A DNA stretch of 35,005 bases from Pseudomonadota bacterium. GTDB taxonomy: Bacteria > Pseudomonadota > Gammaproteobacteria > Burkholderiales > Rhodocyclaceae. Made by a program: the position numbers and the translations under genes. Location of the stretch: contig JAJZSW010000023.1 of assembly GCA_021849505.1 (NCBI GenBank), positions 1 through 35,005 on the forward strand. Reading direction: 5' to 3'. Of this stretch, positions 17,240-35,005 are shown in pieces; position 1 is the first letter of the stretch; each line of letters opens with the position of its first letter. The notes beneath the pieces are model-generated. The model had not been told where the DNA came from and searched no databases. It saw nothing but the letters and a program-made list of their open reading frames with translations.

Positions 17240-17249
17240 GGAGTGCGCC

Positions 17250-20683: not shown

Positions 20684-20709
20684 GTTTTCTCCTTTTTTTA
20701 TGGTTTGCT

Positions 20710-21501: not shown

Positions 21502-21507
21502 GCGATG

Positions 21508-21513: not shown

Positions 21514-21556
21514 AGATTAGAATCCAACGGGTTACTTTGACTAAAGGGGGGTGTTC

Positions 21557-21997
21557 ATGCTGCCGGGACGTGGTTACAACGAACTCGAGGTCGGCGACGC
21601 CTACGAATCGGCGATGACCCTGACCGAAACCCATGTCGTGCTCGGTGCCGGGCTGTTCGGCGACTTCAATCCCCTGCACGTCAATGAAAGCTGGGCGAAA
21701 CAGGGCAAGTTCGGCACGCGCATCGCCCACGGCTATCTCACCAGCAACGTGATGGCCGCGCAGTTCGGCATGCTGCTCTACGGCACGGCGATCGCCTACA
21801 TGGAGCACGCGATCAAATTCACCGCGCCGGTCAAGCCAGGCGACACGCTGCACGTCACCTGGACGGTGACCGCCAAGGACGACAAGCCGAAGCACGCCGG
21901 CGGCATCGTCAGTTTCACCGGCGTCTGCAAGATTCAGGATGGCACGACCGTGGCCGAAGCGACCGCCAAGCTGCTGGTGAAGAACAACTCCCGCTGA
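21557..21997 (+). CDS. MaoC-like hot-dog dehydratase
   Basis: 146 residues. Hot-dog-fold enzyme of the (R)-specific enoyl-CoA hydratase/MaoC type, acting on acyl-CoA or acyl-thioester substrates. The hydratase-2 motif is recognisable: AGLFGDFNPLHVNESWAKQGKFGTRIAHGYLTSNVMAAQFG, with the catalytic Asp and His in GDFNPLH. MEHAIKFTAPVKPGDTLHVTWTVTAK follows as usual. The start is the ATG behind AAAGGGGGG. A GTG six bases upstream is less well spaced. It stands alone between divergent PP2C and convergent HDOD genes, and its stop directly abuts the HDOD stop. The substrate cannot be assigned. Confidence 0.9.
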   Translation: MLPGRGYNELEVGDAYESAMTLTETHVVLGAGLFGDFNPLHVNESWAKQGKFGTRIAHGYLTSNVMAAQFGMLLYGTAIAYMEHAIKFTAPVKPGDTLHVTWTVTAKDDKPKHAGGIVSFTGVCKIQDGTTVAEATAKLLVKNNSR

Positions 21998-22843
21998 TCA
22001 GGTCCGGTCGAGAAAACGGCCGGTGATCTGTTCGTAGTAGTCCTTCTCCTCGTCCGGACCGAGACCGAGTTCGGTCAGCACGCGCGGGCCGATCTTCTGC
22101 CAGAGCGGATCGTCGACGTCATGCAGCCGATGGTAGAAGTGGCTGGCAGCCTGGATGATCGCCACCAGCGTCACCGAAGCGCCGACGGTCTTCTCCTCGG
22201 GCAGGTCGTGGTGGAAGCGGATCGCGTCGCAGACGAAATCCGGCAGTCCCCAATGGCGCGCCACGAGGTAGCCGACCGAGCAGTGATCGACGTCGAACTT
22301 CTCGTCCTCGGCGGACAGGTCGGGCCAGCAGGTGGCATCGTCGAGGTGGAGCTTCGCGCAGTATTGGGGAAAGCGCAGCATCAGCACCGGCACGCCGCAC
22401 TCGTGGAAGATGCCGGCGAGATAGGCCTGATCGGGAAAGACGTTGCAGACCGAGACGCGATCCGCGGCGACGATTGCCGCCATCTGCGCGATCTCGTGGG
22501 CACGGCTCCAGAACACCTCGAAGGCGCGGCGCGCCTGGTCGCCGAGCGCCGTCGCCAACGCAGCCGCCTGCACCAGGTTGAACACCTGCTTGATGCCCAC
22601 CACCATGAGTATCTGTTCGAGCGACTGGGCATTGCGCGCCCGGGCAAACGCCGGCGAACGCGCCGCCTTGTACAGCAGCGCGACGATGCCGGGATCATGT
22701 CCGATCACGCGCGCCACCGCACGGGCATCGTAATCGTCGCTGCTCAGCAGCTGCTGCAGCTCGACCAGCACGCGCGGCTGCGGCGGCAGCTTGACTCCCT
22801 GACGCGCCAGCTGTTCCAGCGCCTGTTTTTCATCGATCGACAT
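21998..22843 (-). CDS. HDOD-domain signalling protein
   Basis: 281 residues. The HDOD domain is an HD-like helical fold without the metal-binding HD pair, found in bacterial signalling. Family pattern: LPPQPRVLVELQQLLSSDDYDARAVARVIGHDPGIVALLYKAARSPAFARARNAQSLEQILMVVGIKQVFNLV, then AYLAGIFHECGVPVLM, HCSVGYLVARHWGLPDFVCDAIRFHHDL and VAIIQAASHF. No output domain is attached. It is the last gene of the long minus-strand run, 25 bases after glcF, with GGGAGG before the ATG. A role in regulating glycolate genes is possible but not shown. Confidence 0.92.
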   Translation of the reverse strand: MSIDEKQALEQLARQGVKLPPQPRVLVELQQLLSSDDYDARAVARVIGHDPGIVALLYKAARSPAFARARNAQSLEQILMVVGIKQVFNLVQAAALATALGDQARRAFEVFWSRAHEIAQMAAIVAADRVSVCNVFPDQAYLAGIFHECGVPVLMLRFPQYCAKLHLDDATCWPDLSAEDEKFDVDHCSVGYLVARHWGLPDFVCDAIRFHHDLPEEKTVGASVTLVAIIQAASHFYHRLHDVDDPLWQKIGPRVLTELGLGPDEEKDYYEQITGRFLDRT

Positions 22844-22868
22844 CTCACGCCTCCCAGCGCACTGTTTG

Positions 22869-24107
22869 CTACTGCGACAATTTGTTGTCCAGCCATTCTA
22901 TCCAGTGCCGGACCGGCATGTCGGTGCCGGCCTGCAGATGGGCGATGCAGCCGATGTTGGCGCTGGCGATGCCGGCCGGCTGGCCGGCGAGTAGCGCGGC
23001 GAGCTTGTGGCCACGCAGGCGGCGGGCGATTTCCGGTTGCAGGATCGAGTAGGTGCCTGCCGAACCGCAACACAGGTGCGCGTCGGCCACCGGCGTCAGC
23101 TCGAAGCCTGCGGCAATCAACAATTCTTCGACCACGCCGCGGATCTTCAGGCCGTGCTGGAGGCTGCAAGGCGCGTGGAACGCCAGCTGCTGCCGTCTCG
23201 CCGGAACCGACTTTTGCAGCAGCTCGACGAGCGCATGCTTTTCCGCTGAGACGACTTCGCTGACATCGCGGGCCAGTTCGCCGACCCGTTTCGCCTTCGC
23301 CGCATAGGCGGGATCGTCCTGCAGCAGGTGGCCGTAGTCCTTGACCTCGACGCCGCAACCCGAGGCGGTGATGACGATGGCCTCGGTGCCCGCCTCGACA
23401 TGCGGCCACCAGGCGTCGATGTTGCGCCGTGCGTTGTCGCGTGCCCCATCGGCATCGCCGAGGTGCAGCTTGACCGCGCCGCAGCAGCCGGCACCGGCGG
23501 CTTCGCAGAGGTGGATGCCGAGCCGCGCCAGCACGCGCTGCGCCGCGCCGTTGATGTTCGGATACATGCTCGGCTGCGCGCAGCCCGCCAGCGCGAGCAT
23601 CCTGCGCGCCTGCGGGGAGGTCTCCGCGACGGAGCCCGCCGAAGTCAGCGGCGGCACCTTGGCCTTGAGCGCGGCAGGCAGGAACGGCCGCACCATCTGG
23701 CCCAGTTTCATCGCCGTGCCGAACAGTGCCGGCCGCGGCAGGCCCTCGCGCAGCGCGCCGCGCATCAGCGCATCGGCTCCCTTGCGCGGCACGCGGCGCT
23801 CGACCACCGCCCGGCCGATTTCGAGCAGGCGCGAGTAATGCACGCCCGACGGGCAGGTCGTCTCGCAGCTGCGGCAGGTCAGGCAGCGGTCGAGGTGCAG
23901 GCGGGTCTTCGCGGTGACTTCCGCGCCCTCCAGCACCTGCTTGATCAGGTAGATGCGGCCACGCGGCCCGTCGAGCTCGTCGCCGAGCAACTGGTAGGTC
24001 GGGCAGGTGGCGGTGCAGAAACCGCAGTGCACGCACTTGCGGAGGATCTCCTCCGCCTCGCGGCCGGCCGTCGTGCCACGCATGAAATCGGCGAGATGGG
24101 TTTCCAT
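22869..24107 (-). CDS. glcF: Glycolate oxidase iron-sulfur subunit
   Basis: 412 residues, close to E. coli GlcF (407). Two [4Fe-4S] ferredoxin motifs lie near the N-terminus (CVHCGFCTATCPTYQ, about residues 25-39, and CLTCRSCETTCPSGV), followed by two cysteine-rich CCG domains (GAGCCGAVKLHLG and CSLQHGLK...LCCGSAGTYS). It passes electrons from the flavin subunits GlcD/GlcE to the respiratory chain at the inner membrane. The ATG at 24107 gives the usual METHLADF start, 2 bases after the glcE stop. All cluster ligands appear present. Confidence 0.97.
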   Translation of the reverse strand: METHLADFMRGTTAGREAEEILRKCVHCGFCTATCPTYQLLGDELDGPRGRIYLIKQVLEGAEVTAKTRLHLDRCLTCRSCETTCPSGVHYSRLLEIGRAVVERRVPRKGADALMRGALREGLPRPALFGTAMKLGQMVRPFLPAALKAKVPPLTSAGSVAETSPQARRMLALAGCAQPSMYPNINGAAQRVLARLGIHLCEAAGAGCCGAVKLHLGDADGARDNARRNIDAWWPHVEAGTEAIVITASGCGVEVKDYGHLLQDDPAYAAKAKRVGELARDVSEVVSAEKHALVELLQKSVPARRQQLAFHAPCSLQHGLKIRGVVEELLIAAGFELTPVADAHLCCGSAGTYSILQPEIARRLRGHKLAALLAGQPAGIASANIGCIAHLQAGTDMPVRHWIEWLDNKLSQ

Positions 24108-24109
24108 AT

Positions 24110-25162
24110 CTAGAAATCCGGATACATGCGGCCGGGGTTGAAGATCCCTTGCGGGTCGAAGGCGACCTTGAGGTTCCGGTGCAGCGTCATGAGCGGCGCG
24201 GACAGCGGCGCGAAGGTACCGACCTGCGCTTTCAGTCCGGGCGGTGCGCGATAGAGCGTCGCGCTGCCGCCGACAGCCGCCGCCGCGGCGCGGATCGTTT
24301 CCGGAGCTGCATCGCTGCTGAGCCAGCGCAGCGCACCGCCCCACTCGATCAGCTGTTCGCCCGGCAGGTCGAGTCGCGGCGCGAGGGAAGGGACGGACAG
24401 ACGCCACAGCGTTTCCACCGCGAAGAACGGCAGCCGCTGGTCGCGCAGGTCGTTCCAAAAACCGTCCGGTGCCGTCTCGCCAGCGCCGAGTTTCAACTGC
24501 GCCGCCTCCACCGCCGCGCGCGCGCCGGCGAGGCGCAGCGTCAGCACCCCGTTCTCCCAGCAACTCGCGACGATCGGCAGCGGCTGGCCGGCCCAGCGGT
24601 TGAGCTGGTCGAGCGCTTCACCCTGATTCATTTCAAAGCGCAGCGTGGTTTCCGCGACTGGCTGCGGCAGCACCTTGAGCGACACTGCGGTGATCAGGCC
24701 CAGCGTGCCGAGGCTGCCGGCGATCAGGCGCGAGACATCATAGCCCGCGACGTTCTTCATCACCTGTCCGCCGAAGGCGAGTTCGCGCGCCTGCCCGTCG
24801 ATCAGCTTCACGCCGAGCACATAGTCACGGACAGAGCCTGCGCTGGCGCGGCGCGGGCCGGACAGGCCCGCCGCCACCATGCCGCCGACGGTCGAGTCGG
24901 CGGCGAAGCGCGGCGGCTCGAAGGGCAGGCATTGCCCCTTTTCGTTCAGGGCCGCTTCGATCTCGGCGAGCGGCGTGCCGCAGCGCGCGGTGATGAACAA
25001 CTCGGTCGGCTCGTAGGCGACGATCCCCGTGTGGCCTGCGGTTTCCAGCACATCGCCGCGCGGCGTGTTGCCATGGAAATCCTTGCTGCCGCTGCCGCGG
25101 ATGCACAGCGGCGCATTCGCCGACTTGATGCGTTCGATGAACTGTTCGCTCAGATCGCTCAT
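24110..25162 (-). CDS. glcE: Glycolate oxidase FAD-binding subunit
   Basis: 350 residues, the same length as E. coli GlcE. FAD_binding_4 protein: IRGSGSKDFHG, VAYEPTELFITARCGTPLAEIEAALNEKGQCLPFEPPRF, STVGGMVAAGLSGPRRASAGSVRDYVLGVKLIDG, FGGQVMKNVAGYDVSRLIAGSLGTLGLIT, and the C-terminal NLKVAFDPQGIFNPGRMYPDF. With GlcD and GlcF it forms glycolate dehydrogenase, oxidising glycolate to glyoxylate. The ATG overlaps the glcD stop (ATGA) and has AGGGAG. The stretch LGAGETAPDGFW is encoded by a near-copy of the dispersed element. Confidence 0.97.
   Translation of the reverse strand: MSDLSEQFIERIKSANAPLCIRGSGSKDFHGNTPRGDVLETAGHTGIVAYEPTELFITARCGTPLAEIEAALNEKGQCLPFEPPRFAADSTVGGMVAAGLSGPRRASAGSVRDYVLGVKLIDGQARELAFGGQVMKNVAGYDVSRLIAGSLGTLGLITAVSLKVLPQPVAETTLRFEMNQGEALDQLNRWAGQPLPIVASCWENGVLTLRLAGARAAVEAAQLKLGAGETAPDGFWNDLRDQRLPFFAVETLWRLSVPSLAPRLDLPGEQLIEWGGALRWLSSDAAPETIRAAAAAVGGSATLYRAPPGLKAQVGTFAPLSAPLMTLHRNLKVAFDPQGIFNPGRMYPDF
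24468..24489 (+). repeat. Copy E of the dispersed element, inside glcE
   Basis: Matches 15525-15546 at 21 of 22 positions (GTGCCGTCTCGCCAGCGCC core). No left arm is visible, so it is a half-element. It is read in a different codon phase from the ugpQ and rhlE copies. Confidence 0.6.
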
Positions 25163-26637
25163 TTTGTCTCCCTTGCACTGCCGGTCAACCGATACTCCGA
25201 ACAGCGGCGCGGCGTCGGTACCGCCTTGCCGGGATTGAGCAGGCCCTGCGGATCGAAGGCCGCCTTCAGGGCATGGAAGGCCGCCAGTTCCTCCGGGGAA
25301 AACTGCACGCACATCTGGCCGACCTTTTCGATGCCGACGCCGTGCTCGCCGGTGATGGTGCCGCCGACATCGACCGACAGTTCGAGGATGCGCGCGCCGA
25401 ATTCGGTGGCGCGCTCGACCTCGCCCGGCACGTTGGCGTCGAACATGATCAGCGGATGCAGGTTGCCGTCGCCGGCATGAAAGACGTTGGCGCAGCGCAG
25501 GCCGTATTGCTGCGCCAGCTCGCCGATGCGGATCAGCACGTGGGCGAGGTGCTTCCTCGGAATGGTGCCGTCCATGCAGAGGTAATCGGGCGTGATGCGG
25601 CCGACGGCCGGGAAGGCCGCCTTGCGGCCGGCCCAGAACTTGAGGCGCTCGGCCTCGCTCTGCGAGACGCGCAGTTCGCGCGCGCCCGCCTGCTCGAGCA
25701 CCGCCTTCATCGCGGCGATCTCCTCTTCGACTTCCTCGGGCGTGCCGTCCGATTCGGCGAGCAGGATCGCCTCCGCCTCGAGGTCGTAGCCGGCATGGAC
25801 GAAGTCCTCGACGGCCGCAGTGGCCGGCTTGTCCATCATCTCGAGGCCGGCGGGAATGATGCCCGCGGCGATGATGTCGGCCACCGCGTTGCCGGCCCGG
25901 GTCATGTCGTCGAAGGAGGCCATCACCACCTTGGCGATCTGCGGCTTCGGGGTTAGCTTGACCGTCGCCTCCAACACCACGGCGAGCATGCCCTCGGAGC
26001 CGATCAGGACGGCGAGCAGGTCGTAGCCCGGCGCGTCGAGCGCGTCGCTGCCGACCTCCACCACCGTGCCGTCGATCAGCGCGACGCGCAGCTTGAGGAT
26101 GTTGTGCACGGTCAGGCCGTACTTGAGGCAATGCACGCCGCCGGAGTTCTCGGCGACGTTGCCGCCGATGGTGCAGGCGATCTGCGAGCTGGGATCGGGC
26201 GCGTAGTAGAGGCCGAGGGGCGCGGCCGCCTCGGAGATCGCCAGGTTGCGCACGCCGGGCTGCACGACGGCCGTGCGCGCCAGCGGGTCGATGCGCAGGA
26301 TGTGCTTGAGCCTGGCCAGCGAGAGGATCACGCCGCCGTCCACCGGCGTCGCGCCCCCCGACAACCCCGTCCCCGCCCCGCGCGCCACCACCGGCACGCC
26401 ATGGCGATGGCAGGCCTTGAGCACCGCGACGACCTGCGTCTCGTTCTCCGGCAGGGTCACGGCGAACGGCATCTGGCGGTAGGCGGTCAGCCCGTCGCAC
26501 TCGTAGGGCTTCAGGTCTTCAGGGTCGGCGAGCAGGGCGGTACCCGGCAGGATGCCGGCCAACTCGTGCAGCAGCGCGGCGCGGTCGCAGGCGGAGAAGT
26601 CCTGGTCCGACGCGCGGGAGTGCAGTGGTGTGTTCAT
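25159..26637 (-). CDS. glcD: Glycolate oxidase FAD-linked catalytic subunit
   Basis: 492 residues. The FAD-binding PCMH domain in the first half has MPFAVTLPENETQVVAVLKACHRHGVPVVARGAGTGLSGGATP, PDPSSQIACTIGGNVAENSGGVHCLKYGLT and LIGSEGMLAVV. The FAD-oxidase C-terminal domain follows: GRKAAFPAVGRITPDYLCMDGTIPRKHL, NVFHAGDGNLHPLIMFD, TGEHGVGIEKV, FDPQGLLNPGKAVP. It is the hydroxyacid-oxidising subunit of glycolate dehydrogenase. D-lactate dehydrogenases are relatives, but adjacency to glcE and glcF settles the call. Start and stop overlap the neighbours by 4 bases on both sides. Confidence 0.97.
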   Translation of the reverse strand: MNTPLHSRASDQDFSACDRAALLHELAGILPGTALLADPEDLKPYECDGLTAYRQMPFAVTLPENETQVVAVLKACHRHGVPVVARGAGTGLSGGATPVDGGVILSLARLKHILRIDPLARTAVVQPGVRNLAISEAAAPLGLYYAPDPSSQIACTIGGNVAENSGGVHCLKYGLTVHNILKLRVALIDGTVVEVGSDALDAPGYDLLAVLIGSEGMLAVVLEATVKLTPKPQIAKVVMASFDDMTRAGNAVADIIAAGIIPAGLEMMDKPATAAVEDFVHAGYDLEAEAILLAESDGTPEEVEEEIAAMKAVLEQAGARELRVSQSEAERLKFWAGRKAAFPAVGRITPDYLCMDGTIPRKHLAHVLIRIGELAQQYGLRCANVFHAGDGNLHPLIMFDANVPGEVERATEFGARILELSVDVGGTITGEHGVGIEKVGQMCVQFSPEELAAFHALKAAFDPQGLLNPGKAVPTPRRCSEYRLTGSARETK

Positions 26638-27407
26638 CGATAGGGTTCCAGCCAGCCGAAGCTGTCGAGGGTGTCGCCGCTCGGGATGTACTCGCAGCCG
26701 ACCCAGCCGGCATAGCCGAGCTGCTGCAGGCGTGCGAAGAGGAAAGGAAAGTTGATCTCGCCGGTGCCGGGTTCGTGGCGGCCCGGATTGTCGGCGATCT
26801 GGAGGTGGCCGATGCGTGCGATGTTCGTCTCGAGCGTGCGCGCGAGGTCGCCCTCCATGACCTGGGCGTGATAGACGTCGTATTGCAGGAACAGGTTGCG
26901 GCTGTCGACCGCGTCTAGAACCTGCAGCGCGGCGCGCGTGGTCGGCACGAGGTAGCCGGGATTGTCGCGCGTGTTGAGCGGCTCGAGCATCAGCCGGATG
27001 CTGGCGCGCTGCGTCACGGCGGCGGCGAACTTCAGATTGTCCACGAGCGTATCGACGGCCTTGCCCTGCGTTGCGGCGGGGATACCGGCCAGGCAGTTCA
27101 AGCGCGTGCAGCCGAGGGCATCGGCGTATTCGATGGCGCGCCCCACGCCGTCCTGGAATTCGGCCTTGCGCTCGGGCTGGCAGGCGATGCCGCGGTCACC
27201 GGCGGCCCAGTTGCCGGCGGGCAGATTGAACAGCACGACCTCGACGCCCGAGGTCAGGACGACTTCGGCGAGCACAGCCTTGTCGTACATGTAGGGAAAG
27301 TGGAACTCGACGCCGGAAAATCCCGCGCGCGCCGCCGCGCCGAAGCGGTCGAGGAAGTCGTGTTCCTGGAACAGGAAGGACAGGTTGGCGCTGAACTGGA
27401 GGGGCAT
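26634..27407 (-). CDS. hyi: Hydroxypyruvate isomerase
   Basis: 257 residues, matching the family length (E. coli Hyi 258). TIM-barrel AP-endonuclease-2-like fold: LQFSANLSFLFQEHDFLDRFGAAARAGFSGVEFHFPY, VEVVLFNLPAGNWAAGDRGIACQPERKAEFQDGVGRAIEYADALGC, LMLEPLNTRDNPGYLVPTT (metal-binding Glu), FLQYDVYHAQVMEGDL, IGHLQIADNPGRHEPGTGEINF and VGCEYIPSGDT. It interconverts hydroxypyruvate and tartronate semialdehyde, downstream of glyoxylate made by GlcDEF. Glyoxylate carboligase and tartronate semialdehyde reductase genes are not in the window. It starts 8 bases after the preceding gene's stop and overlaps glcD by 4 bases. Confidence 0.95.
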   Translation of the reverse strand: MPLQFSANLSFLFQEHDFLDRFGAAARAGFSGVEFHFPYMYDKAVLAEVVLTSGVEVVLFNLPAGNWAAGDRGIACQPERKAEFQDGVGRAIEYADALGCTRLNCLAGIPAATQGKAVDTLVDNLKFAAAVTQRASIRLMLEPLNTRDNPGYLVPTTRAALQVLDAVDSRNLFLQYDVYHAQVMEGDLARTLETNIARIGHLQIADNPGRHEPGTGEINFPFLFARLQQLGYAGWVGCEYIPSGDTLDSFGWLEPYR

Positions 27408-27415
27408 GAGGCGGA

Positions 27416-28447
27416 TTATGCCAAGGCCAGCGCCGCCGTGTCGTGCGAGAGCGCCTCGACGGTCGCCTCGTCGCTGGCCAGCAGGCGGCGCGCGACGGCT
27501 TCCCAGTGGAGGGCGCCGCGCTGGACGAGTTCCCGCAGTGCCGTCACGTCGGAGCTGACTTTCGTGTAATCGTAGCCGGCCATTGCCGGCCACAGCTCGC
27601 GGCGCATGCCATCGAAGTTGGCGAACCAGAACCACAGCGACGGCCAGGCCTGCCGCTCGATCAGCGCCGGCAGCGTGACCAGGCAATCGGCGAGGTTGTC
27701 GCGCACCGCGCGCATGAGGATCTCGGCGCGGCGTTTCTTCGAGCAGGCCAACTGCTCCTCCCAGCCCGTGCCGAGCAGCTTGCCGGCGGCATGCTCGCCG
27801 CGTTCGTGCAGGATCAGCGTTTCAGTCTCGGCAGCGGTCATGCGTTCGAGCGCCGCTCCGGGCTCGGTTTCATGGCCGTGCGCGGCGAGCGCGAGCGCCA
27901 TCGCGCCGGGCGTCCGCTTCATCGCCCAGGCCTCGGCCTTCTCCCACAGCCACTGGCGCAATGCCTCGCGCCGCACGATCACCGTGCCGCCCTGCAGCGC
28001 GGCGGGGATCGCGGTCAGGTCGCGCGCGTATTCGCATTCGCAGACCAGCACGGTCAGGCCGTCATCCTCCACCTTGCGGTCGAGCCGGCCGAGGAAGAAG
28101 TGGGGCTTGCCGAAGCGGCCGATGCCCGCCCCGTAGACCAGTCCGTGCGGAACGATCGCCCGGTTGATATCGACGACCGCAAACGGCTCGTATTCGGTGC
28201 CCGCCAGCGGCAGCGGCGCGAAATCTTCCGCGGCGAGCGTTTCCCAGAGTTCTTCGCGTGCATTGAGCCATTCGCCCACCTCGGAACGCGCGAGTGGATC
28301 GCCGAGCGGGATGCCGCTTTCCCAGCGGTAGAACTCGCGCATTTCGAGCAGGTAGGTGCACAACGTCATCTCGCGCGCATGCCGCGCGTCGGCGATGTGG
28401 CAGTTGCGCTGGACGGCGGCGACGAGGCGATCGAAATGCGCAATCAT
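27416..28447 (-). CDS. Conserved protein of unknown function, 343 residues
   Basis: Begins MIAHFDRLVAAVQRNCHIADARHAREMTLCTYLLEMREFYRWESGIPLGDPL. Visible features: a helical N-terminal part with LEMREFYRWE, a central alpha/beta part (EPFAVVDINRAIVPHGLVYGAGIGRFGKPHFFLGRLDRKVEDDGLTVLVCECEYARDL), and a helical C-terminal half (ETETLILHERGEHAAGKLLG...RRAEILMRAVRDNLADCLVTLPALIERQAWPSLWFWFANFDGMRREL). The E-x-x-x-HERGE-H cluster could bind metal, but this is a guess. There is no signal peptide or membrane segment. I do not recognise the family with confidence. It is embedded in the minus-strand run, 5 bases after the cysteine-rich gene and 8 before hyi, so it links the AAA/DUF2201 module to the glycolate genes. 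A long upstream extension of the frame has unusual Arg-rich composition and is rejected. Confidence 0.8.
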   Translation of the reverse strand: MIAHFDRLVAAVQRNCHIADARHAREMTLCTYLLEMREFYRWESGIPLGDPLARSEVGEWLNAREELWETLAAEDFAPLPLAGTEYEPFAVVDINRAIVPHGLVYGAGIGRFGKPHFFLGRLDRKVEDDGLTVLVCECEYARDLTAIPAALQGGTVIVRREALRQWLWEKAEAWAMKRTPGAMALALAAHGHETEPGAALERMTAAETETLILHERGEHAAGKLLGTGWEEQLACSKKRRAEILMRAVRDNLADCLVTLPALIERQAWPSLWFWFANFDGMRRELWPAMAGYDYTKVSSDVTALRELVQRGALHWEAVARRLLASDEATVEALSHDTAALALA

Positions 28448-28452
28448 GACGA

Positions 28453-28899
28453 TCAGGTCCTGGGCCGGCTGCGCTTGCGGATCTGCCAGTGGGCGACGCC
28501 CTGCACGATGCGCGAGAACGGCAGCCGGTCGAGCGCGCCGAATTCGGCCTGCGCCAGTCGCACCAACTTGAGAACATCCGGCGCGTGGGCCGCGGGATCG
28601 AGCAGGTCCTTGAGGCCGACGAGCCCGCCGCACTGCACCTTCATCAGCATGGCGTGCGGCAGGACGCGCTGCGTGTCCTTGAGCTTGAGCGCGAAGGCCG
28701 AATTCTGGCGCAGCAGGGTCAGCAGCTGGCCGCAGGCGGCGCGCGCCAGCGGTTCGCGGCAGGCCACCAGCTCACGCTCGGCCAGGGCAAGACGCTGCGC
28801 GGCCTCGCAGGCGGCCGCCTGACACAGCAGTGCCTTCTCGAACACGCAGGGCAGCGGATTGATCTGCTGGCGCGTGGCGTGAAAGCTGGCTTCGTGCAT
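28453..28899 (-). CDS. Cysteine-rich conserved protein of unknown function
   Basis: 148 residues. Five cysteines are concentrated in the first 60 residues (18, 26, 31, 47, 56: PLPCVFEKALLCQAAACEAAQRLALAERELVACREPLARAACGQLL), with another around residue 90 (VQCGGL). Such spacing suggests a metal or Fe-S site, or a redox role, though it is not a standard ferredoxin motif. The rest is helical with a basic C-terminus (WQIRKRSRPRT). No signal peptide, so the cysteines are in the cytoplasm. It lies 15 bases after the 76-aa gene and 5 before the 343-aa gene, in step with the reductase and Fe-S theme of the module. Function unknown. Confidence 0.8.
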   Translation of the reverse strand: MHEASFHATRQQINPLPCVFEKALLCQAAACEAAQRLALAERELVACREPLARAACGQLLTLLRQNSAFALKLKDTQRVLPHAMLMKVQCGGLVGLKDLLDPAAHAPDVLKLVRLAQAEFGALDRLPFSRIVQGVAHWQIRKRSRPRT

Positions 28900-28914
28900 G
28901 GTCTGGCCACCCCG

Positions 28915-29145
28915 TTACCATTCGTCTCCGAACACGGGCTGCACCTCGCGCGGGGTATTCAGGGTGTCCTCGGCCTGCAATTCGTTTTCGCCGAAGACGA
29001 CCCGAAACAGATCCTGGCTGGGTGCGGCATTCTGGCGCATTTCCTTGGCCGCGACAGAGGCTTCCTTGAACTTCTCGAACTGGGCCAGCTTTTCGAGTTG
29101 GCGGATCGGGCCGATCTGGCTCACGCGATAGAGGTAATAGGGCAT
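28915..29145 (-). CDS. Small conserved protein of unknown function, 76 residues
   Basis: MPYYLYRVSQIGPIRQLEKLAQFEKFKEASVAAKEMRQ... begins with a short beta strand, then a charged amphipathic helix, then a strand and helix (DLFRVVFGENELQAEDTLNTPRE), ending acidic (VFGDEW). The compact beta-alpha-beta-alpha layout and the FxENELxAEDxL segment look like a real conserved family rather than a chance frame, but I cannot name it. AGGAAA precedes the ATG at a good distance. Cytoplasmic. The position between the S24-like gene and the cysteine-rich gene suggests a subunit or adaptor of the same module. Confidence 0.75.
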   Translation of the reverse strand: MPYYLYRVSQIGPIRQLEKLAQFEKFKEASVAAKEMRQNAAPSQDLFRVVFGENELQAEDTLNTPREVQPVFGDEW

Positions 29146-29162
29146 GTGGCTTTCCTGTTGGG

Positions 29163-29540
29163 CTAGTCGACGTAGCGTTTGGCGGCCTTGCGGCGGCCGG
29201 GCTTGGATTTCTGGATGATCACCCCCTTGATGACCGACAGGTCGGGAATGCTCGCTGTCGGATATCTGGGGTTGAGGGCGCGCAATTTCCAGCCCCCCTC
29301 GCTGCCGCTCAACTGGCGGAAGATCCACTCGTTTTCGAGCCAGGCCATGACGTAGGAACCGTCGACGGCCAGACCCTCGGGTTCGATGACGATGATGTCG
29401 CCCTCGACGAATTCCGGCTCCATGCTGTCGCCCAGCACCATCAGGACGAAGGGTTCGGCGCTGCTGCAGGCGTCGAGCGCGGCATCGGTGCGGATTTCCC
29501 CCGCCGGCACCACGGGAATGGGAAAGGGTTTCTTATTCAC
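29163..29540 (-). CDS. LexA/S24-fold protein, apparently lacking the catalytic lysine
   Basis: 125 residues from a GTG start with AGGTGG upstream. The S24 (LexA/UmuD/signal-peptidase) fold is clear: VLMVLGDSMEPEFVEGDIIVIEPEG with the nucleophile Ser 39 in GDSMEP, then GSYVMAWLENEWIFRQLSGSEGGWKLRALNPRYP. In LexA the general base is a Lys in a VKRL-like strand. The equivalent strand here reads WIFRQL, with no Lys, so self-cleavage is doubtful. There is no DNA-binding domain before it: the protein starts about 30 residues ahead of the serine. The C-terminus is very basic (KSKPGRRKAAKRYVD). It overlaps the 85-aa gene by 8 bases. A binding or sensing role is more likely than an SOS repressor. Confidence 0.85.
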   Translation of the reverse strand: MNKKPFPIPVVPAGEIRTDAALDACSSAEPFVLMVLGDSMEPEFVEGDIIVIEPEGLAVDGSYVMAWLENEWIFRQLSGSEGGWKLRALNPRYPTASIPDLSVIKGVIIQKSKPGRRKAAKRYVD

Positions 29541-29790
29541 TCAGCCACCTGACCAGGTAGTACAAACGAAATCCCTCGGACGAACGCGACGGCCCCATGA
29601 CTTCCGCCCCATGCAGGTCCTGCGCGGGATCTTGCCGCCGCAGGGCCTCCTCCTCCGAATCCACCACTTCGACGACATTCTCGGGAAAGCGCTGGCGCTT
29701 GCGCCTGACCGACGGGGCGGCCTGGACCAGCGCGAACCGCTGCTGCACGAGATGCGGGGCTTCCGCATCGAGGAAAATTCCGCCTTTCAT
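29533..29790 (-). CDS. Small conserved protein of unknown function, 85 residues
   Basis: MKGGIFLDAEAPHLVQQRFALVQAAPSVRRKRQRFPENVVEVVDSEEEALRRQDP...HGAEVMGPSRSSEGFRLYYLVRWLSE. It looks like a small alpha/beta domain with a hydrophobic C-terminal strand (FRLYYLVRWL). The ATG at 29790 overlaps the DsrS-like stop as TGATG and has AAGGAA upstream. A GTG one codon earlier is also possible. The stop lies inside the start of the S24-like gene. These overlaps on both sides support a real gene. I do not recognise the family. Confidence 0.72.
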   Translation of the reverse strand: MKGGIFLDAEAPHLVQQRFALVQAAPSVRRKRQRFPENVVEVVDSEEEALRRQDPAQDLHGAEVMGPSRSSEGFRLYYLVRWLSE

Positions 29791-30803
29791 CACAGGTTCC
29801 TTAAAGCTCGCAAGTGCCCAATGATAGGCGCGAATAGCGGCTCGAGATGGCGCCGCAGCAGCGGGCCGACCGCCGTGGTCCGGGTGAGGATCGCCTGGGC
29901 ATCGACATTCGACAGGCTTCCCAATGCCTCCAGCGCGGCAATCTCGGCGGGCGGCACCGGCAAGCCGGCAGATGCGCGCCCGGCGGCGAAATACCGGCCG
30001 AGCAGATCGAGCAGCAGATAGACCGCCTCATGCGCGGGGGGCCTTTCCAGCGTCAGTTCGGCGGTCTTGAGATAGCTCTGCCCGGCGCCGGAATAGCAGC
30101 GCGCCAGCAGCCGGGCTGCCGGCGTGTCGGGCAGTTTGTCTGGCAAAGCGCGTGGCGGTTCGGGCGGCAGATCGTCGGGCAGGCTTTCGAGGAAGCCGAT
30201 CAGGTAGTACGGCCGGCGCTTGCCCTTGGCCCAGAGTTGCTCGCGTTTCTCCGCATCGAGCAGACCGGCCGCAAGCACCGCACGCACGCTCTGCATCGCG
30301 GCGATCGGGTCCTCCTCGAAGGGCAGGTGCTCGACCAGGTAATCGGCGAGTACCTGGCCCATCGTGCCGGCCCGTACGGCCGGGTGCATCAGCATCACGC
30401 GCGCGATCTCCATCGTCGCGAGGTTCTGGCTCGCCCACCAGACGCGTCGCGCCAGCTCGTCGGTCAGCCCCGCCGCATGGGCGACGGCCATCACCGCCTC
30501 GGACGCGCCGAGCCTGAGCAGCGCCTCCAGATTCCTTTCGCTGGCCTGTCCCATGCGCGTCCAGCGACGCAAGTGCACCGGGTAGCCGCCGGGCGAGCCG
30601 AGCGCGTGGCCGCCGAGCAGTTCGCGGACGCGCTGGTAATAGCGCTCGGCGCGACCGACCGGATTGAGCGGGATGCGCGCCTCGCCCTTCGGCGTCAGCG
30701 CGTAGAGGGTGCGCGCGCCTTCGTCGATGCGCACCGCCAGCAGTTCGCCGGCGAGCAGCACGTTGAGACGCAGCGCGTCTTCGGGGGATAAATCTGGGTT
30801 CAT
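29790..30803 (-). CDS. DsrS-like protein
   Basis: 337 residues. It resembles DsrS, a cytoplasmic protein encoded at the end of the dsr sulfur-oxidation cluster of Allochromatium and annotated as a sulfur-reduction protein. Matching blocks, from memory of the family: MNPDLSPEDALRLNVLLAGELLAVRIDE, LTPKGEARIPLNPVGRAERYYQRVRELLGGHALGSPGGYPVHLRRWTRMGQ, HAAGLTDELARRVWW, DYLVEHLPFEEDPIAAMQSVRAVL and RRPYYLIGFLESLPDDLPPE. No dsrAB or other dsr gene is in the window, so this is probably a member of the wider DsrS family with a role beside the AAA/DUF2201 pair. The ATG overlaps the DUF2201 stop (TGATG). No membrane segment, no signal peptide and no known catalytic motif. Confidence 0.75.
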   Translation of the reverse strand: MNPDLSPEDALRLNVLLAGELLAVRIDEGARTLYALTPKGEARIPLNPVGRAERYYQRVRELLGGHALGSPGGYPVHLRRWTRMGQASERNLEALLRLGASEAVMAVAHAAGLTDELARRVWWASQNLATMEIARVMLMHPAVRAGTMGQVLADYLVEHLPFEEDPIAAMQSVRAVLAAGLLDAEKREQLWAKGKRRPYYLIGFLESLPDDLPPEPPRALPDKLPDTPAARLLARCYSGAGQSYLKTAELTLERPPAHEAVYLLLDLLGRYFAAGRASAGLPVPPAEIAALEALGSLSNVDAQAILTRTTAVGPLLRRHLEPLFAPIIGHLRALRNL

Positions 30804-32008
30804 CAGTTCAGCTGGATGCGGCGGCCGAAGGGCACGGGGGCCTTGCCCTTGACCAGCCAGAGGACCGGATAGTTGGGCGCTTCCCTGGGGAACTCGCCGT
30901 CGGCGTCGGTGAAGTAGAGGAGCGTGTCGGGTTGCAGGCCGTGGCGCGCGATCCACTCGAACACCGGCGCGAACGAGGTACCGCCGCCGCCGGCGAACTG
31001 GCGCGGCAGGCGCAGTTCGTCCCAGGGCTCGAAGGTCCACGGCGCGCCGGCGGCGAGATCGCTGTCGCAGGCGAACAGCGTGATGCGCACCGGCGTCGTG
31101 CCCTTGAGGGCATTCAGTTCGCCGAGGAATTCGGCCAGGTCCTTTTCCGTCACCGAGCCGGAGACGTCGATGGCGACATGGATATCGCCGCTGTGGCTGC
31201 GCAGCGAAGGCCAGATCACGTCGCCTTCACGACGGGAAGGCCGCTGCCAGGTGTAGTCGTCGCGCGCCGTCTGCGAGAGGTATTGCGCCAGCAGCGCGCG
31301 CCACGACACCTGCGCGGCGAGCGCGGCCTCGGTCAGGCGCGCGAGCTGCCCGGAGAGCTTGCCGGCCTCGCGCGCGCGCTGCGCCGCGGCGGCGAGATGG
31401 CGCTGCCACTGCTGCTGCAGCTGTTCCTTTTCCTGCGCGGACAATGGTGGCGGCGGCGGTGGCTGTTCGCCTGCCTCGCCTTCCCGTGGCGCTCCGCCGG
31501 AACCGGCTTTCTGCTCATCCTTTTCGCCCTGCCCGCCCTCATCGCCGTCCCAGAGATGATCGTCCATCATCTCGCTGTCGTCGTTGCTGTCGTCGATGCA
31601 CGGGTAGATTTCCTCCGCCGCCATGCCGCGATAGACATCGAGCACGATCGCCTCGCCGGGCGGCGTGAGGCCCTCGTCGACGAGGATCGGATTGACGGCG
31701 AAATCGCAGGCCAGGTCCCACTTGCGTTGCACGCGGTGGCCGCGCCGCGCGAAGTGGCCGAGCGCGCAATGCAGGGCCTCGTGCGCGAGCGCGAACTGCA
31801 CCTGGGCGTTGCTGAGGCCGTCGATCCAGCCAGGGTTGTAGTAGAAGGCGCGCGCGTCGGTCGCCGTGGTACGGCACCACTGCGCCGGCTTGAGCGGCAG
31901 ACGCAAGACCAGTGCACCGAGGAAGGGCTTGTCGAGAATCAGCCGCGTGCGGGCGGCGGCGAGCTTGTTCTCGACCTGTTGCGCGAACGGGTCGGCGCTC
32001 TCACTCAT
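30803..32008 (-). CDS. DUF2201-family putative metallopeptidase with vWA-like C-terminal domain
   Basis: 401 residues. N-terminal half: VQFALAHEALHCALGHFARRGHR (HExxH at 76-80 plus His 85) followed by WDLACDFAVNPILVDEGL, as in zinc metallopeptidase-like DUF2201 proteins. Middle (about 140-200): an acidic, Gly- and Pro-rich linker (DDSNDDSEMMDDHLWDGDEGGQGEKDEQK...PPPPPPLS). C-terminal half: VHVAIDVSGSV-type DxSxS (Asp 281; the exact text is HVAIDVSGSVTEKD), later GGGGTSFAPVFEWI and LLYFTDADGEFP, matching a vWA/MIDAS fold. vWA partners of MoxR ATPases (CbbO, NorD) help activate a target enzyme. The gene overlaps the ATPase by 8 bases and the DsrS-like gene by 3. Confidence 0.9.
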   Translation of the reverse strand: MSESADPFAQQVENKLAAARTRLILDKPFLGALVLRLPLKPAQWCRTTATDARAFYYNPGWIDGLSNAQVQFALAHEALHCALGHFARRGHRVQRKWDLACDFAVNPILVDEGLTPPGEAIVLDVYRGMAAEEIYPCIDDSNDDSEMMDDHLWDGDEGGQGEKDEQKAGSGGAPREGEAGEQPPPPPPLSAQEKEQLQQQWQRHLAAAAQRAREAGKLSGQLARLTEAALAAQVSWRALLAQYLSQTARDDYTWQRPSRREGDVIWPSLRSHSGDIHVAIDVSGSVTEKDLAEFLGELNALKGTTPVRITLFACDSDLAAGAPWTFEPWDELRLPRQFAGGGGTSFAPVFEWIARHGLQPDTLLYFTDADGEFPREAPNYPVLWLVKGKAPVPFGRRIQLN

Positions 32009-33053
32009 ACAACATCAGGTCGGCCACCGCGTTCGCCCAGTTGGCGAACTGCGGCACGGCGAACAGCGGCTGGCCGATGCCGCGATGCATGTCGGAGATC
32101 AGCATCACGCCCATCTCGCGCTGCGGAAAGCGCTGCGCGTAGTCGAGGATGCGGCCCCAGACCTGCGGCGCATCGGCATTGCCGCGCGCGCGCAGAGCCC
32201 GGCCGACGAGCGCGGCGGCGACGGCGTATTGCAGGTCGATCTCGGTCGGCACGGCGATCTCCTGGCCGGCGCAGATCGCGTCGAGATCCGGGAGGCGGTC
32301 GAGGCTGTCGATGAAGGCCGCGCACTCGATGCCGGCCGCGTGGCCGACGCAGGCCGCCAGCGCGCCGGCGAGCAGTTCCGGATGATCACCAAACTTCTGC
32401 AGCGCGCGGTGGGCGAACTCCCACGAGCGCGGGCTCGGGAAGGCCATCTCGCCGCCCGCATTCTTCGCCGGGTCGAAATCGAAGATCAGCTCCGGCTTGA
32501 AGCGCAGGAAGGCGACGATCCGTTCGTCGATGCCGTTGGCGTAGGCCCAGGCCGCCCAGTCGTCGAGGTTCACGTCGACCTCGAAGTGCGAGAAGCGGTT
32601 GGCGAGCGGCGCCGGCATGGCGTAGGTGACGCCGCGGTCGCCCTGCCGGTTGCCGGCGGCGAAGATGGCCCAGCCCGGCGGCACGCGGTACTCGCCAAGG
32701 CGGCGGTCGAGGATCAGTTGGTAGGCGGCGGCGGATACCGCCGGCGGGGCGGAAGTGATCTCGTCGAGGAATAGGATGCCCGCCGGCCAGTGGCGGTCGG
32801 CATCCGGCAGCATGGCGGGCACGGCCCACTCGACGCGGTTCTCGATGCGGAAGGGAATGCCGCGCAGGTCGGACGGTTCCATCTGCGAGAGGCGGATGTC
32901 GATGACCGGCACGCCATGGCGCGCCGCCACCTGCGCGACGATCTGCGACTTGCCGACGCCCGGCGGGCCCCAGAGCATGACCGGCGTGTGATGGCCGGCG
33001 GACGTGCTTTCGAATTCGCGGTCGAGGATGAAGGCAAGCTGGGAAGGACGCAT
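32001..33053 (-). CDS. MoxR-type AAA+ ATPase
   Basis: 350 residues. Walker A GPPGVGKS (29-36), Walker B GILFLDEITSA (Asp 97, Glu 98), sensor 1 FAAGNR (Asn 135), and MPAPLANRFSHFEVDV containing the arginine finger. The MoxR-typical PSDLRGIPFRIENRVEWAVP segment and the AAA-lid helices follow. MoxR ATPases act as chaperones or activators together with vWA proteins (CbbQ/O for Rubisco, NorQ/D for nitric oxide reductase). The co-encoded DUF2201/vWA protein is its obvious partner. It starts at the ATG of the TGATG overlap with the reductase stop. The target enzyme is not evident. Glycolate oxidase in the same run is one candidate by position only. Confidence 0.93.
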   Translation of the reverse strand: MRPSQLAFILDREFESTSAGHHTPVMLWGPPGVGKSQIVAQVAARHGVPVIDIRLSQMEPSDLRGIPFRIENRVEWAVPAMLPDADRHWPAGILFLDEITSAPPAVSAAAYQLILDRRLGEYRVPPGWAIFAAGNRQGDRGVTYAMPAPLANRFSHFEVDVNLDDWAAWAYANGIDERIVAFLRFKPELIFDFDPAKNAGGEMAFPSPRSWEFAHRALQKFGDHPELLAGALAACVGHAAGIECAAFIDSLDRLPDLDAICAGQEIAVPTEIDLQYAVAAALVGRALRARGNADAPQVWGRILDYAQRFPQREMGVMLISDMHRGIGQPLFAVPQFANWANAVADLMLYE

Positions 33054-34537
33054 CAGAGCACCTCGACGACAAGTTGCTGCTCGGCGACGCCGCCGGCCTG
33101 CAGCGCCCTGGCCACTGCATCGACGAATCCGCCCGGCCCGACGATGTAGATGTCGCGGTGCGCCGGATCGCATTCGGCGAGGACGTGCCGTGCGGCTTCG
33201 ACGCCCGCCGCGGCCGGGTCCGCGGCATCGATCAATGCATAGCTGAAGGTCTCCAGCGCATCCGCCCAGGCGCGACACTGGTTCTCCAGATAGTGGCCAT
33301 CGGGACGCGTCGCTGCCCAGACGAGGCGCTGCATGCCCGGCAGGTCGGACGCGACGGCATGCTCGATCAGGCTCTTGACCGGCGCAAACCCGCTGTCGCA
33401 GGCGACGAAGACGAGATCGTTGCAGGATTCCTTCTTGAGCACGAAATCGCCGAAGGGGCCGAACAGGCTGACCAGGTCGCCGGGCTTGAAGGCCCCCGCG
33501 AACAGGCGCGCGGCGAACTCGTCCCTTTCCCCATCGCTATTGTCGCGGCAGATATGGAACAACAGATTCCGGTCATCGCAGGGGCAGGACGCGATGGCGT
33601 ACTCGCCGCGGAAGTTTGCCGTGCTGCCGGTGACGTTGAGCGTGATGCGCTGGCCGGCCAGGAAACGCAATCGATTGGTGCGCGGGGTCTGCAGATGCAG
33701 AAGCATGGTGTCGGCCGCGAGCGAAGAAACGCCTTTCACCTTGGCGACGATCTCCTGCTGCGGGATATCGTCCGGCGACTTCGCCTCGAGCATCTCGACG
33801 ACGAGATCGCTGACCGCCGTGTGCGAGCACAGCAGCGTGTAGCCCTGCGCGCGCTCGCTCGCCGACAGCGGGTAGTCGGTATTGCGTATCTGCTTGGTAT
33901 GGCCCGCCACCACGCGCGCCTTGCACAGGCCGCAATTGCCGTTGCCACAGCCGTAGGACGGCGCGAGGCCGGCGCGCAGCGCCGCCTCCAGCACCGTCTC
34001 GTTGCCCTCGACGTGGAATTCGTGTCCGGAGGGTTTCACCTTCACGTTCGCGCTCATCACTCTAAGCATATCGTCCATCACGGCAATCGTGTCGGGCGGC
34101 TCCTCGTTGCCGAGCACGCTGGCCAGTCCGTCGTCAAGGAAGCGGGCGAGCACGGCAAGCTGCTCGGAGGGCGACGCGCCCGCCATTTGCTCGATCTTTT
34201 CGCGCATGGCCTCGATGAGATCGTGGTAATGCGCCAGCGTGCGGCGCACCTCCTCGTACTCCTCGCTCTGCGCGGCGAGGCGCTGGGCGAGGATTTCCTG
34301 ATTCGGCAGGACGCGCTCCCGGATGCGCCGACCGAAGGCCTGTTCCTTGATCTGCGTGATGCGCTCGAAGGCGCCGGAATCCTCCAGCCGGACGTCGGGA
34401 AACAGATGTTGCAAGTCCTCGGTCGTCACCATTCCGTCGTGCGATGGCAGTTCGCCGGCGGCGATGTGCTTCTGCAGCACGGCGCGCGTCACGCCGAGCA
34501 GCTGGGCCGCGCGCGAAAGGGTCAGGGGCAGGGACAT
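33053..34537 (-). CDS. Helix-turn-helix / [2Fe-2S] ferredoxin / FNR-type reductase fusion
   Basis: 494 residues. Residues about 4-50 (LTLSRAAQLLGVTRAVLQKHIAAGELPSHDGMVTTEDLQHLFP) look like a MerR/excisionase-type helix-turn-helix. A coiled-coil region (about 75-120; EILAQRLAAQSEEYEEVRRTLAHYHDLIEAMREKIEQM) follows. A plant-type [2Fe-2S] domain comes next with Cys 197, 202, 205 and 237 (YGCGNGNCGLCKARV...LLCSHT). A ferredoxin-NADP reductase-like half completes it (RLRFLAGQRITLNVTG, GEYAIASCPCDD, GDLVSLFGPFGDFVLK, LVFVACDSGFAPVKSLIEHA, DIYIVGPGGFVDAVARAL). It is first in the 14-gene run, with GAGGAG before the ATG. It should move electrons from NAD(P)H through a flavin to the cluster. The N-terminal domain suggests DNA binding or another docking role. 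Confidence 0.92.
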   Translation of the reverse strand: MSLPLTLSRAAQLLGVTRAVLQKHIAAGELPSHDGMVTTEDLQHLFPDVRLEDSGAFERITQIKEQAFGRRIRERVLPNQEILAQRLAAQSEEYEEVRRTLAHYHDLIEAMREKIEQMAGASPSEQLAVLARFLDDGLASVLGNEEPPDTIAVMDDMLRVMSANVKVKPSGHEFHVEGNETVLEAALRAGLAPSYGCGNGNCGLCKARVVAGHTKQIRNTDYPLSASERAQGYTLLCSHTAVSDLVVEMLEAKSPDDIPQQEIVAKVKGVSSLAADTMLLHLQTPRTNRLRFLAGQRITLNVTGSTANFRGEYAIASCPCDDRNLLFHICRDNSDGERDEFAARLFAGAFKPGDLVSLFGPFGDFVLKKESCNDLVFVACDSGFAPVKSLIEHAVASDLPGMQRLVWAATRPDGHYLENQCRAWADALETFSYALIDAADPAAAGVEAARHVLAECDPAHRDIYIVGPGGFVDAVARALQAGGVAEQQLVVEVL

Positions 34538-34614
34538 CAGCGGTCTCCTCGTGGATATTCGTATTTATGGTTTTGCTGATGATACCCAATCGTGCACTTT
34601 TGCCGAAAGTAGTC

Positions 34615-34632
34615 TTGTAAATTTCTTTACAA
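34615..34632. promoter_or_regulatory. Inverted-repeat operator in the divergent reductase/chrB promoter region
   Basis: TTGTAAA-TTTC-TTTACAA, 7-bp perfect arms, lies 18 bases before the chrB ATG in an AT-rich gap of 113 bases, which is striking in this GC-rich sequence. The left arm can double as a -35 (TTGTAA) with a -10-like TAGAGT 17 bases on (34638-34643). ChrB proteins are chromate-responsive regulators of their own operon, so this may be their operator. It is also upstream of the minus-strand 14-gene run. Confidence 0.5.
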
Positions 34633-34650
34633 ATATGTAGAGTTAGTTAC

Positions 34651-35005
34651 ATGACTGCGAACCCGAATGACTGGCTGACCCTCGTCAGCACCCTGCCCGC
34701 CCGCAATACCGCCGCGCGCATGCGGTTGTGGCGCGCGCTCAAGAACCTCGGCTGTGCGACGCTGCGTGACGGGGTTTATCTGTTGCCGTTGAATTCGCAA
34801 ACGGAAGCAGCGCTGCGCGCCTTGTCCGCCGAGGTTCGGGCTGCCGGCGGCAGCGCCGAAGTCCTGCATGTCCTGGCGGACGCCGCGCAGCAAGCTTCTT
34901 TCCTGCGTCTGTTCGACCGCAGCGAAGACTACGGCCGGTTGCTGGCCGGCATCCACGCGGCACTCAACAATCCCGACCCCAAGGCGGCCCACGTCCTGCG
35001 GCGCG
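34651..35005 (+). CDS. chrB: ChrB chromate-resistance protein (N-terminal part; 3' end outside window)
   Basis: 118 codons are visible and the frame is open at the edge. The start MTANPNDWLTLVSTLPARNTAARMRLWRALKNLGCATLRDGVYLLPL is the characteristic ChrB N-terminal domain (W.ALK..G.A.LRDGVYLLP), followed by EAALRALSAEVRAAGGSAEVLHV. ChrB is a chromate-sensing regulator or accessory factor normally encoded ahead of the chromate efflux pump chrA. The C-terminal domain and any chrA lie beyond the window. The start codon lacks an obvious Shine-Dalgarno (GTAGAG is the best candidate). Confidence 0.88.
   Translation, partial: MTANPNDWLTLVSTLPARNTAARMRLWRALKNLGCATLRDGVYLLPLNSQTEAALRALSAEVRAAGGSAEVLHVLADAAQQASFLRLFDRSEDYGRLLAGIHAALNNPDPKAAHVLRR

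Follow-up and report, generated by a model that had tools for sequence, protein, structure and literature searches.

Paired MoxR-type AAA+ ATPases and VWA-domain proteins are, as a kind of machine, already known. Passages of PMC9976466 and PMC13036017 describe NorQ/NorD as a MoxR AAA+/VWA chaperone that inserts FeB into cNOR, with NorD consisting of an N-terminal domain, a linker and a VWA domain, and with NorQ remodelling the linker for metal insertion; the former also names the MoxR/VWA pairs CbbQ/CbbO and RavA/ViaA. In Allochromatium vinosum, dsrN-dsrR-dsrS correspond to Alvin_1263-1265 (an entry in Table 9 of PMC10892978). In an excerpt of the 2011 genome paper for this organism (PMC3368242), the role of DsrS is described as "still not resolved" and an own promoter is reported for dsrS, and a passage of PMC11406059 names dsrS with no function attached. 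Here we describe a 14-gene run in a 35,005-nucleotide stretch of DNA (contig JAJZSW010000023.1 of assembly GCA_021849505.1, hereafter the window), in which a MoxR/VWA pair adjoins a DsrS-like protein. We think it reasonably probable that this run represents reverse-Dsr (rDsr) sulfur-oxidation accessory genes joined to a glycolate-oxidation operon.

The window is an entire contig of a 161-contig assembly, a Sulfuritalea-like metagenome-assembled genome (MAG), and its nearest named contigs come from Sulfuritalea and Rhodocyclaceae MAGs. The genes of the run, in their order of reading, are the following (aa, amino acids; HTH, helix-turn-helix):

33053..34537, minus strand: RED, 494 aa, weak N-terminal HTH followed by [2Fe-2S] ferredoxin, FAD and NAD domains
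32001..33053, minus strand: MOXR, MoxR-type AAA+ ATPase, 350 aa (AAA_5, 4e-12)
30803..32008, minus strand: VWA, 401 aa (PF13203, DUF2201_N, 1e-46; PF09967, DUF2201, VWA-like, 8.6e-24)
29790..30803, minus strand: DsrS-like protein, 337 aa; its profile matches the gene after dsrN-dsrR in loci L160, L161 and L162
29533..29790, minus strand: P85, unknown, 85 aa, placed from the sequence and the open reading frame list, conserved GPSRSS motif
29163..29540, minus strand: S24-fold protein, 125 aa (PF00717, 1e-15)
28915..29145, minus strand: P76, unknown, 76 aa (66 distinct sequences aligned)
28453..28899, minus strand: CYS, 148 aa, four invariant Cys
27416..28447, minus strand: DUF6866/Sfum_1244 protein, 343 aa (NF045620, 419.1 bits, cut-off 150)
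26634..27407, minus strand: hyi, hydroxypyruvate isomerase-like (curated-family score)
25159..26637, minus strand: glcD (below both GlcD cut-offs)
24110..25162, minus strand: glcE (above the GlcE cut-off)
22869..24107, minus strand: glcF (above the GlcF cut-off)
21998..22843, minus strand: HDOD-domain protein, last in the run (PF08668, 6.5e-38)

The 13 gaps between these genes are, in order and with overlaps as negative values, -1, -8, -1, -1, -8, 17, 15, 5, 8, -4, -4, 2 and 25 bases, so that the co-directional run from 34537 to 21998 stands as first described, with no gap above 25 bases. The arrangement also recurs in relatives and is thus not a product of chance, and the run of the preliminary description is conserved and resembles a transcription unit. 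Its family names were borne out as well: Fer2-FNR reductase, AAA_5 MoxR-like, DUF2201, S24, HDOD, hyi-like and GlcD/E/F. The hyi product scored 353.3 bits against a TIGR03234 cut-off of 353.45 and exceeds the cut-off for 2-oxo-tetronate isomerase. None of the DsrS-like, 85-aa, 76-aa and Cys proteins matched a Pfam family at E ≤ 0.1.

The MoxR, DsrS, Cys and DUF6866 families are associated with dsrA

The association of these four families with dsrA appears both in co-occurrence and, in other genomes, in synteny. For co-occurrence, a class-level sample of 274 genomes, one per species and drawn evenly, was searched for MOXR, DsrS and DUF6866, and part of it for CYS and DUF2201_N. We counted dsrA as present at E below 1e-30, a threshold of our own choosing that gives 94 genomes (87 of them over the curated cut-off), and MOXR as present at E ≤ 1e-60. 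MOXR was found in 81 genomes, the DsrS-like family in 83 and DUF6866 in 63. Given as both, family only, dsrA only and neither, the counts against dsrA were 75/6/19/174 for MOXR, 79/4/15/176 for DsrS and 58/5/36/175 for DUF6866, with Fisher p values from 8e-48 to 2e-28, whose strength is exaggerated by kinship among the genomes. In a chosen 80 of the 274 genomes, CYS was found in 33 of 48 with dsrA and in 0 of 32 lacking it, and the broad DUF2201_N family in 38 of the same 48 and 4 of the same 32. Within the window's genus, dsrA is carried by 17 of 18 genomes and DsrS by 15 of 18.

MOXR and DsrS occur together in 77 genomes. Leaving aside G108, where MOXR is in two pieces, they lie within 6 kb of each other in 38 of 76 genomes and farther apart in the other 38; with half of these genomes lacking close linkage, the pairing does not merely reflect linkage. 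Of 35 stretches fetched around MOXR (L163-L198, L178 excepted), 31 have a VWA match next to it; none was seen beside MOXR in L185, which is cut by a contig end, nor in L187, L193 and L196. The best MOXR match exceeds 450 bits in 79 of the 81 genomes, the exceptions being a 133-position fragment in G170 and the match in G206. The latter (L174; 434.7 bits) is a divergent MoxR that has a VWA protein encoded next to it; its genome has no strong dsrA, and it is possibly part of a sister system with another client. In a DsrA tree (FastTree, 69 sequences, midpoint root), genomes lacking the MoxR/VWA/DsrS triad are scattered among gammaproteobacterial DsrA and include several betaproteobacterial lineages, four named MAGs having been scored as triad-lacking from their dsr locus alone; given this scatter, no single DsrA clade accounts for the triad.

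We also compared the neighbourhoods around DUF6866 in 96 distinct loci, after removing loci with identical DUF6866 C-termini. Two blocks separate from each other in this comparison: block 1 (MOXR-VWA-DsrS-P85), which in the window's genus sits between RED and S24, and block 2 (RED-S24-P76-CYS-DUF6866). Where at least 6 kb upstream was available, a triad member lies within 8 kb of DUF6866 in all 12 loci belonging to the window's genus or to genome G026, and in only 3 of 25 other named Rhodocyclales loci.

In these and other loci we took the names dsrM, dsrK, dsrL and dsrJ from gene order, as our own assignment. Matches over curated cut-offs named dsrA, dsrB, dsrE/F/H (TusD/C/B), dsrC and dsrO. 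The matches of dsrP and dsrR fell below their cut-offs and dsrN matched as cobyrinate a,c-diamide synthase, as which it is also annotated in a portion of PMC10892978, with dsrP and dsrR likewise annotated there as matched here. On this naming, dsr genes lie within 14 kb of DUF6866 in 14 of 22 distinct gammaproteobacterial loci. In five MAGs with the titles Burkholderiales, Betaproteobacteria or Proteobacteria (L132, L137, L138, L144 and L146), dsrA has both RED and DUF6866 no farther than 14 kb away, and in four of them P76 as well. In the Thiobacillus MAG L143, MOXR-VWA-DsrS-P85-S24-P76-CYS-DUF6866 is found about 5.5 kb from dsrR-N-P-O-J, and in L207 MOXR, VWA, DsrS and dsrA are consecutive on one strand, with 66 bases between DsrS and dsrA. 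The gene directly after dsrN-dsrR is matched by the DsrS-like profile in L160, L161 and L162, i.e., the family occupies the post-dsrR position in dsr operons. In L160 (positions 13538-17622, genome G075) this dsrS is followed by a RED homologue, 39% identical over the ferredoxin and reductase part (RED residues 164-494), and about 1.5 kb beyond it, on the opposite strand, by a CYS homologue (37%); block-2 members can thus sit at the end of a dsr operon. The window genome's own dsr operon is on another contig, where dsrABEFHCMKL could be read (L159, 15 kb from dsrA to dsrL), and the window's dsrS copy adjoins moxR-vwa, away from the post-dsrR place.

A Cas6-family protein (PF09559, 3.5e-57) is encoded upstream of dsrA in L065 (13269-13955, minus strand). 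This gene is found in 14 of 33 clustered loci and, beside dsrA, in the window's own genome (L159), and it is accompanied by a TauD-family gene and by a second gene of DsrC/TusE type.

Several observations weigh against a tie between the run and rDsr. In the three measured genomes of the window's genus with both on one contig, the module lies far from dsrA, at 327 kb (G017), 194 kb (G002) and 182 kb (G012). None of RED, S24, P76 or CYS stands beside DUF6866 on its strand in any of 22 gammaproteobacterial loci, so block 2 is a unit in betaproteobacteria only. The Fisher values overstate independence, because the genomes are related. MOXR also occurs with no strong dsrA in G127, G187, G206, G238, G246 and G330. 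Beyond the class the link breaks down: in a phylum-wide sample, dsrA is present in 50 of 249 genomes (the window's genome included) and MoxR at E ≤ 1e-60 in 2 of 249, one being the window's own, which leaves 48 of the 50 dsrA-carrying genomes lacking this MoxR; DsrS was found in 1 of 49 dsrA-carrying genomes of this sample. In the window's family outside its genus, dsrA is present in 7 of 18 genomes and DsrS in 1 of 18. On these counts DsrAB can mature in the absence of the triad, whose client may then be some other protein of the Dsr set; the triad belongs to beta- and gammaproteobacterial rDsr as an accessory and is not something that DsrAB requires in general. As to the genomes with DsrS but no dsrA, namely G127, G187, G246 and G330, all four also carry MOXR and DUF6866 (a fifth DUF6866 genome lacking dsrA is G153). 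Three of the four have assemblies in some 350 to 580 contigs, and in G187 a contig end cuts the TauD-family gene found ahead of dsrA in other genomes, which makes it likely, but not proven, that the missing dsrA genes are assembly gaps.

Predicted properties of the encoded proteins

MOXR is 70-91% identical to 18 relatives. Its Walker A motif, GPPGVGKS, is conserved in 19 of 19 sequences at all positions except the first P (18/19), and LFLDEI in the Walker B region in 19 of 19. The VWA protein is laid out as a DUF2201_N domain, metallopeptidase-like with HExxH, a low-complexity linker and a C-terminal VWA-like domain. HEALH is present in 17 of 18 of these proteins, the homologue in L069 having QQ for HE, and the metal ion-dependent adhesion site (MIDAS) DxSxS-T-D (DxSGS...T...D) is complete in 18 of 18 (D281, S283, S285, T344, D368). 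With Walker A, Walker B and MIDAS all present, MOXR/VWA can be classed, from its motifs, as a putative AAA+/VWA chaperone-type pair. Against solved chains, the MOXR profile matched only Midasin at E ≤ 1e-5, with no CbbQ or NorQ, and the VWA profile matched only MJ1213 among PDB sequences (E 0.04-0.05). The model of the DsrS-like protein (predicted local distance difference test score, pLDDT, 90.0) shows a helical solenoid preceded by a short beta part. Foldseek gave no match to this model at E ≤ 0.001, VIA Z reached at most 7.6, to helical-repeat proteins and non-specifically, and the profile found one chance-like match among PDB sequences (E 0.19).

RED matches Fer2 (1.7e-13), NAD_binding_1 and FAD_binding_6 in Pfam, and HTH_17 below its cut-off. 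In an alignment of 24 distinct P85 sequences, GPSRSS is conserved. CYS has Cys 18, 31, 47 and 56 invariant and C90 in most sequences. In the S24-like protein FRQL is conserved at 85% or more over 55 loci, and an Arg aligns with a Lys of lambda CI that we take to be the catalytic one. Because of this Arg in place of the Lys expected of an S24 peptidase, the protein is probably not an autoprotease.

The DUF6866 model has a pLDDT of 95.8. With Foldseek alone, nothing matched it at E ≤ 1 (best E 1.8). VIA-align gave Z 10.6 to DPP III (280 aligned residues, root-mean-square deviation 5.5) and Z 9.9 to PolE (264 aligned, 5.1), with the next unrelated row at Z 4.9, values that helix-rich models can reach by chance, without kinship. 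We would describe the protein as having the PolE/DPP III overall fold as a prediction. Its motif, HExxE-X23-E (H214-E215-x-G217-E218-X23-E242), shows no variation at its five named positions among the 35 sequences compared. Passages of PMC12614342 give the PolE family motif as H(E/D)xxH-X(21-23)-E and the DPP III zinc motif as HExxGH. The conserved motif of DUF6866 is HExGE where DPP III (M49) has HExxGH, and compared with the PolE/DUF6421 motif the spacing fits while the second His is Glu in 35 of 35. No Pfam sequence link from DUF6866 to DUF6421 or M49 was seen. The profile matched a CutA fragment in the PDB (E 0.0015 over 49 residues), which we took as a chance match.

By analogy with the action of NorQ/NorD on NO reductase, our model for the MoxR/VWA step, the MoxR ring would spend ATP and, through the VWA protein, reshape a protein of the Dsr pathway so that a cofactor or metal can be inserted or the protein repaired. 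DsrS, a predicted helical solenoid, may act as a client adaptor or third subunit, and MoxR/VWA/DsrS together would probably be a machine that uses ATP to remodel some protein of the Dsr pathway. A redox/metal branch for the same pathway may be formed by RED, the Cys protein and DUF6866. More tentatively, and with considerable doubt on our part, all of these could make up a dedicated metal-centre assembly or repair apparatus for beta- and gammaproteobacterial rDsr, with a MoxR/HExxH-VWA motor, a DsrS adaptor, and a redox branch in which DUF6866 would be a new non-haem metal enzyme (DPP III/PolE fold, H-E-E ligands) that the four-Cys protein and the ferredoxin reductase would supply.

The glycolate neighbourhood and alternative explanations

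Of the 38 Rhodocyclales loci with at least 6 kb available downstream, 33 have glycolate genes after DUF6866, on its strand and no more than 8 kb away (13 of 14 from the window's genus plus G026, and 20 of 24 named ones). Near DUF6866 they are found in 0 of 19 gammaproteobacterial loci, in 1 of 5 loci that are Burkholderiales or Hydrogenophilales by title, and in 5 of 9 of unclear title. Given the adjoining genes in Rhodocyclales against none in gammaproteobacteria, the glycolate join is a conserved trait of the order Rhodocyclales and not of the module. Co-occurrence of module and glycolate genes, whose complete absence the preliminary description would have counted against itself, thus depends on lineage: such absence holds in gammaproteobacteria and fails inside Rhodocyclales. 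The glycolate genes are a neighbour retained for the most part within a single order, and their co-expression might serve the salvage of 2-phosphoglycolate, an established pathway in CO2-fixing sulfur oxidisers. Gammaproteobacterial DUF6866 genes are flanked by a glycosyl-transferase-3 gene, 2OG-Fe(II) oxygenase-like genes and a conserved gene of about 190 aa with no Pfam match (L059:11900-13018, L065:10553-11179, L065:8771-9343).

The preliminary description had proposed a system for maturation or repair, fed by redox reactions, and had named the flavo-iron-sulfur glycolate oxidase as one possible client. Its maturation part survives, as the Walker, MIDAS and HExxH motifs of the MoxR/VWA pair are intact, which fits maturation or remodelling. 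Glycolate oxidase as the client does not: despite the tight linkage in Rhodocyclales and the membership of GlcF in an iron-sulfur family, it is dsrA that the MoxR, DsrS, Cys and DUF6866 families follow in their occurrence, and in other genomes they are found near dsr genes. We rejected it as the main explanation on the contrast between the gammaproteobacterial and Rhodocyclales loci given above, the former having dsr genes near DUF6866 instead, and the named Rhodocyclales mostly keep glc while rarely having a triad member close by. This version of the proposal now seems to us very improbable.

An unlikely alternative, although not an extreme one, is proteolytic or regulatory control, in which the HExxH would belong to a real protease, MoxR would unfold substrates picked by DsrS, and the S24-like protein and HTH-bearing reductase would sense conditions, the whole setting Dsr levels. 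The near-constant HEALH, the Pfam label "putative metallopeptidase" for the VWA protein's N-terminal domain, the N-terminal HTH match in RED and the dsrS promoter reported in an excerpt of PMC3368242 all suit it. Nevertheless, the L069 homologue has QQ for HE, the S24 lysine position is an Arg, and the HTH match lies under the Pfam cut-off. The machine might also serve some other enzyme of autotrophic sulfur oxidisers, e.g., Rubisco, like CbbQ/CbbO, and track dsrA only indirectly through a shared lifestyle. Co-occurrence cannot tell Dsr from linked traits, and the glycolate neighbourhood in Rhodocyclales would suit CO2 fixation; we consider such a client quite improbable given the direct synteny with dsrR and dsrA, the lack of any solved CbbQ or NorQ chain among the MoxR profile matches, and the DUF2201_N identity of the VWA protein's N-terminal domain. 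An accessory role in rDsr sulfur oxidation thus remains the explanation that we favour.

Some features around the run are noted here. A scan for promoters over 21500-34900 gave 4 consensus matches, against 1.0 (standard deviation 1.0) in shuffles; one of them, looked at as a possible internal promoter before hyi, has its end at 27415, which is 8 positions away from where hyi starts (27407). At 34615-34632, 78-95 bases upstream of the first gene, there is a perfect AT-rich palindrome (TTGTAAA-GAAA-TTTACAA). We considered it as a conserved operator and rejected this, since among the loci whose RED start could be placed, the TGTAA/TTACA core upstream of RED was seen in the window only. On the other side, 496 bases separate the last gene of the run from the next, a PP2C phosphatase gene; this gene and pntA (19088-21501) both recur downstream of glcF/HDOD in relatives, in 14 loci each.

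Comparison with known systems

In open-licence PubMed Central (PMC) literature we found no dsr-dedicated MoxR/VWA machine with a DsrS partner, no proposal of DUF6866 as a candidate metal protein with the DPP III fold in the Dsr pathway, and no mention of Sfum_1244 or DUF6866; in the retrieved passages of open-licence PMC papers naming both dissimilatory sulfite reductase and MoxR, the two are not linked. Pairing DsrS with one MoxR/VWA pair, by linkage and genome-wide co-occurrence, offers DsrS a concrete and testable role and adds the Dsr pathway to the candidate client pathways of MoxR chaperones. Sfum_1244/DUF6866 and the four-Cys family gain a pathway, and DUF6866 also a predicted fold and candidate metal ligands.

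Over most of its chain, DUF6866 shares by VIA-align the predicted fold of PolE, a DUF6421 Fe/pterin oxidase, and of DPP III. The PolE family resembles it also in the HE pair and in the 23-residue spacing to a Glu, a likeness of sequence motif rather than of superposition, while DUF6866 differs in having Glu at the position of the second His. A. vinosum DsrS (Alvin_1265) has the same place after dsrN-dsrR as the profile matches in L160-L162, a likeness of position alone. Unlike it, the window's dsrS adjoins moxR-vwa, a closeness (within 6 kb) found in half of the 76 genomes counted above. CbbQ/CbbO and RavA/ViaA are like MOXR/VWA, by description alone, in a pairing that acts on one enzyme, as MOXR/VWA would, although their clients differ. 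NorQ/NorD resembles MOXR/VWA in that the ATPase gene stands beside the gene for its partner, in which a linker joins the N-terminal domain to a C-terminal VWA domain with MIDAS DxSxS-T-D, and each pair appears tied to one respiratory metalloenzyme pathway. The likeness is one of layout alone: MOXR/VWA differs from NorQ/NorD in its DUF2201_N domain with HExxH, in DsrS as a putative third partner, and in the rDsr pathway to which it would belong.

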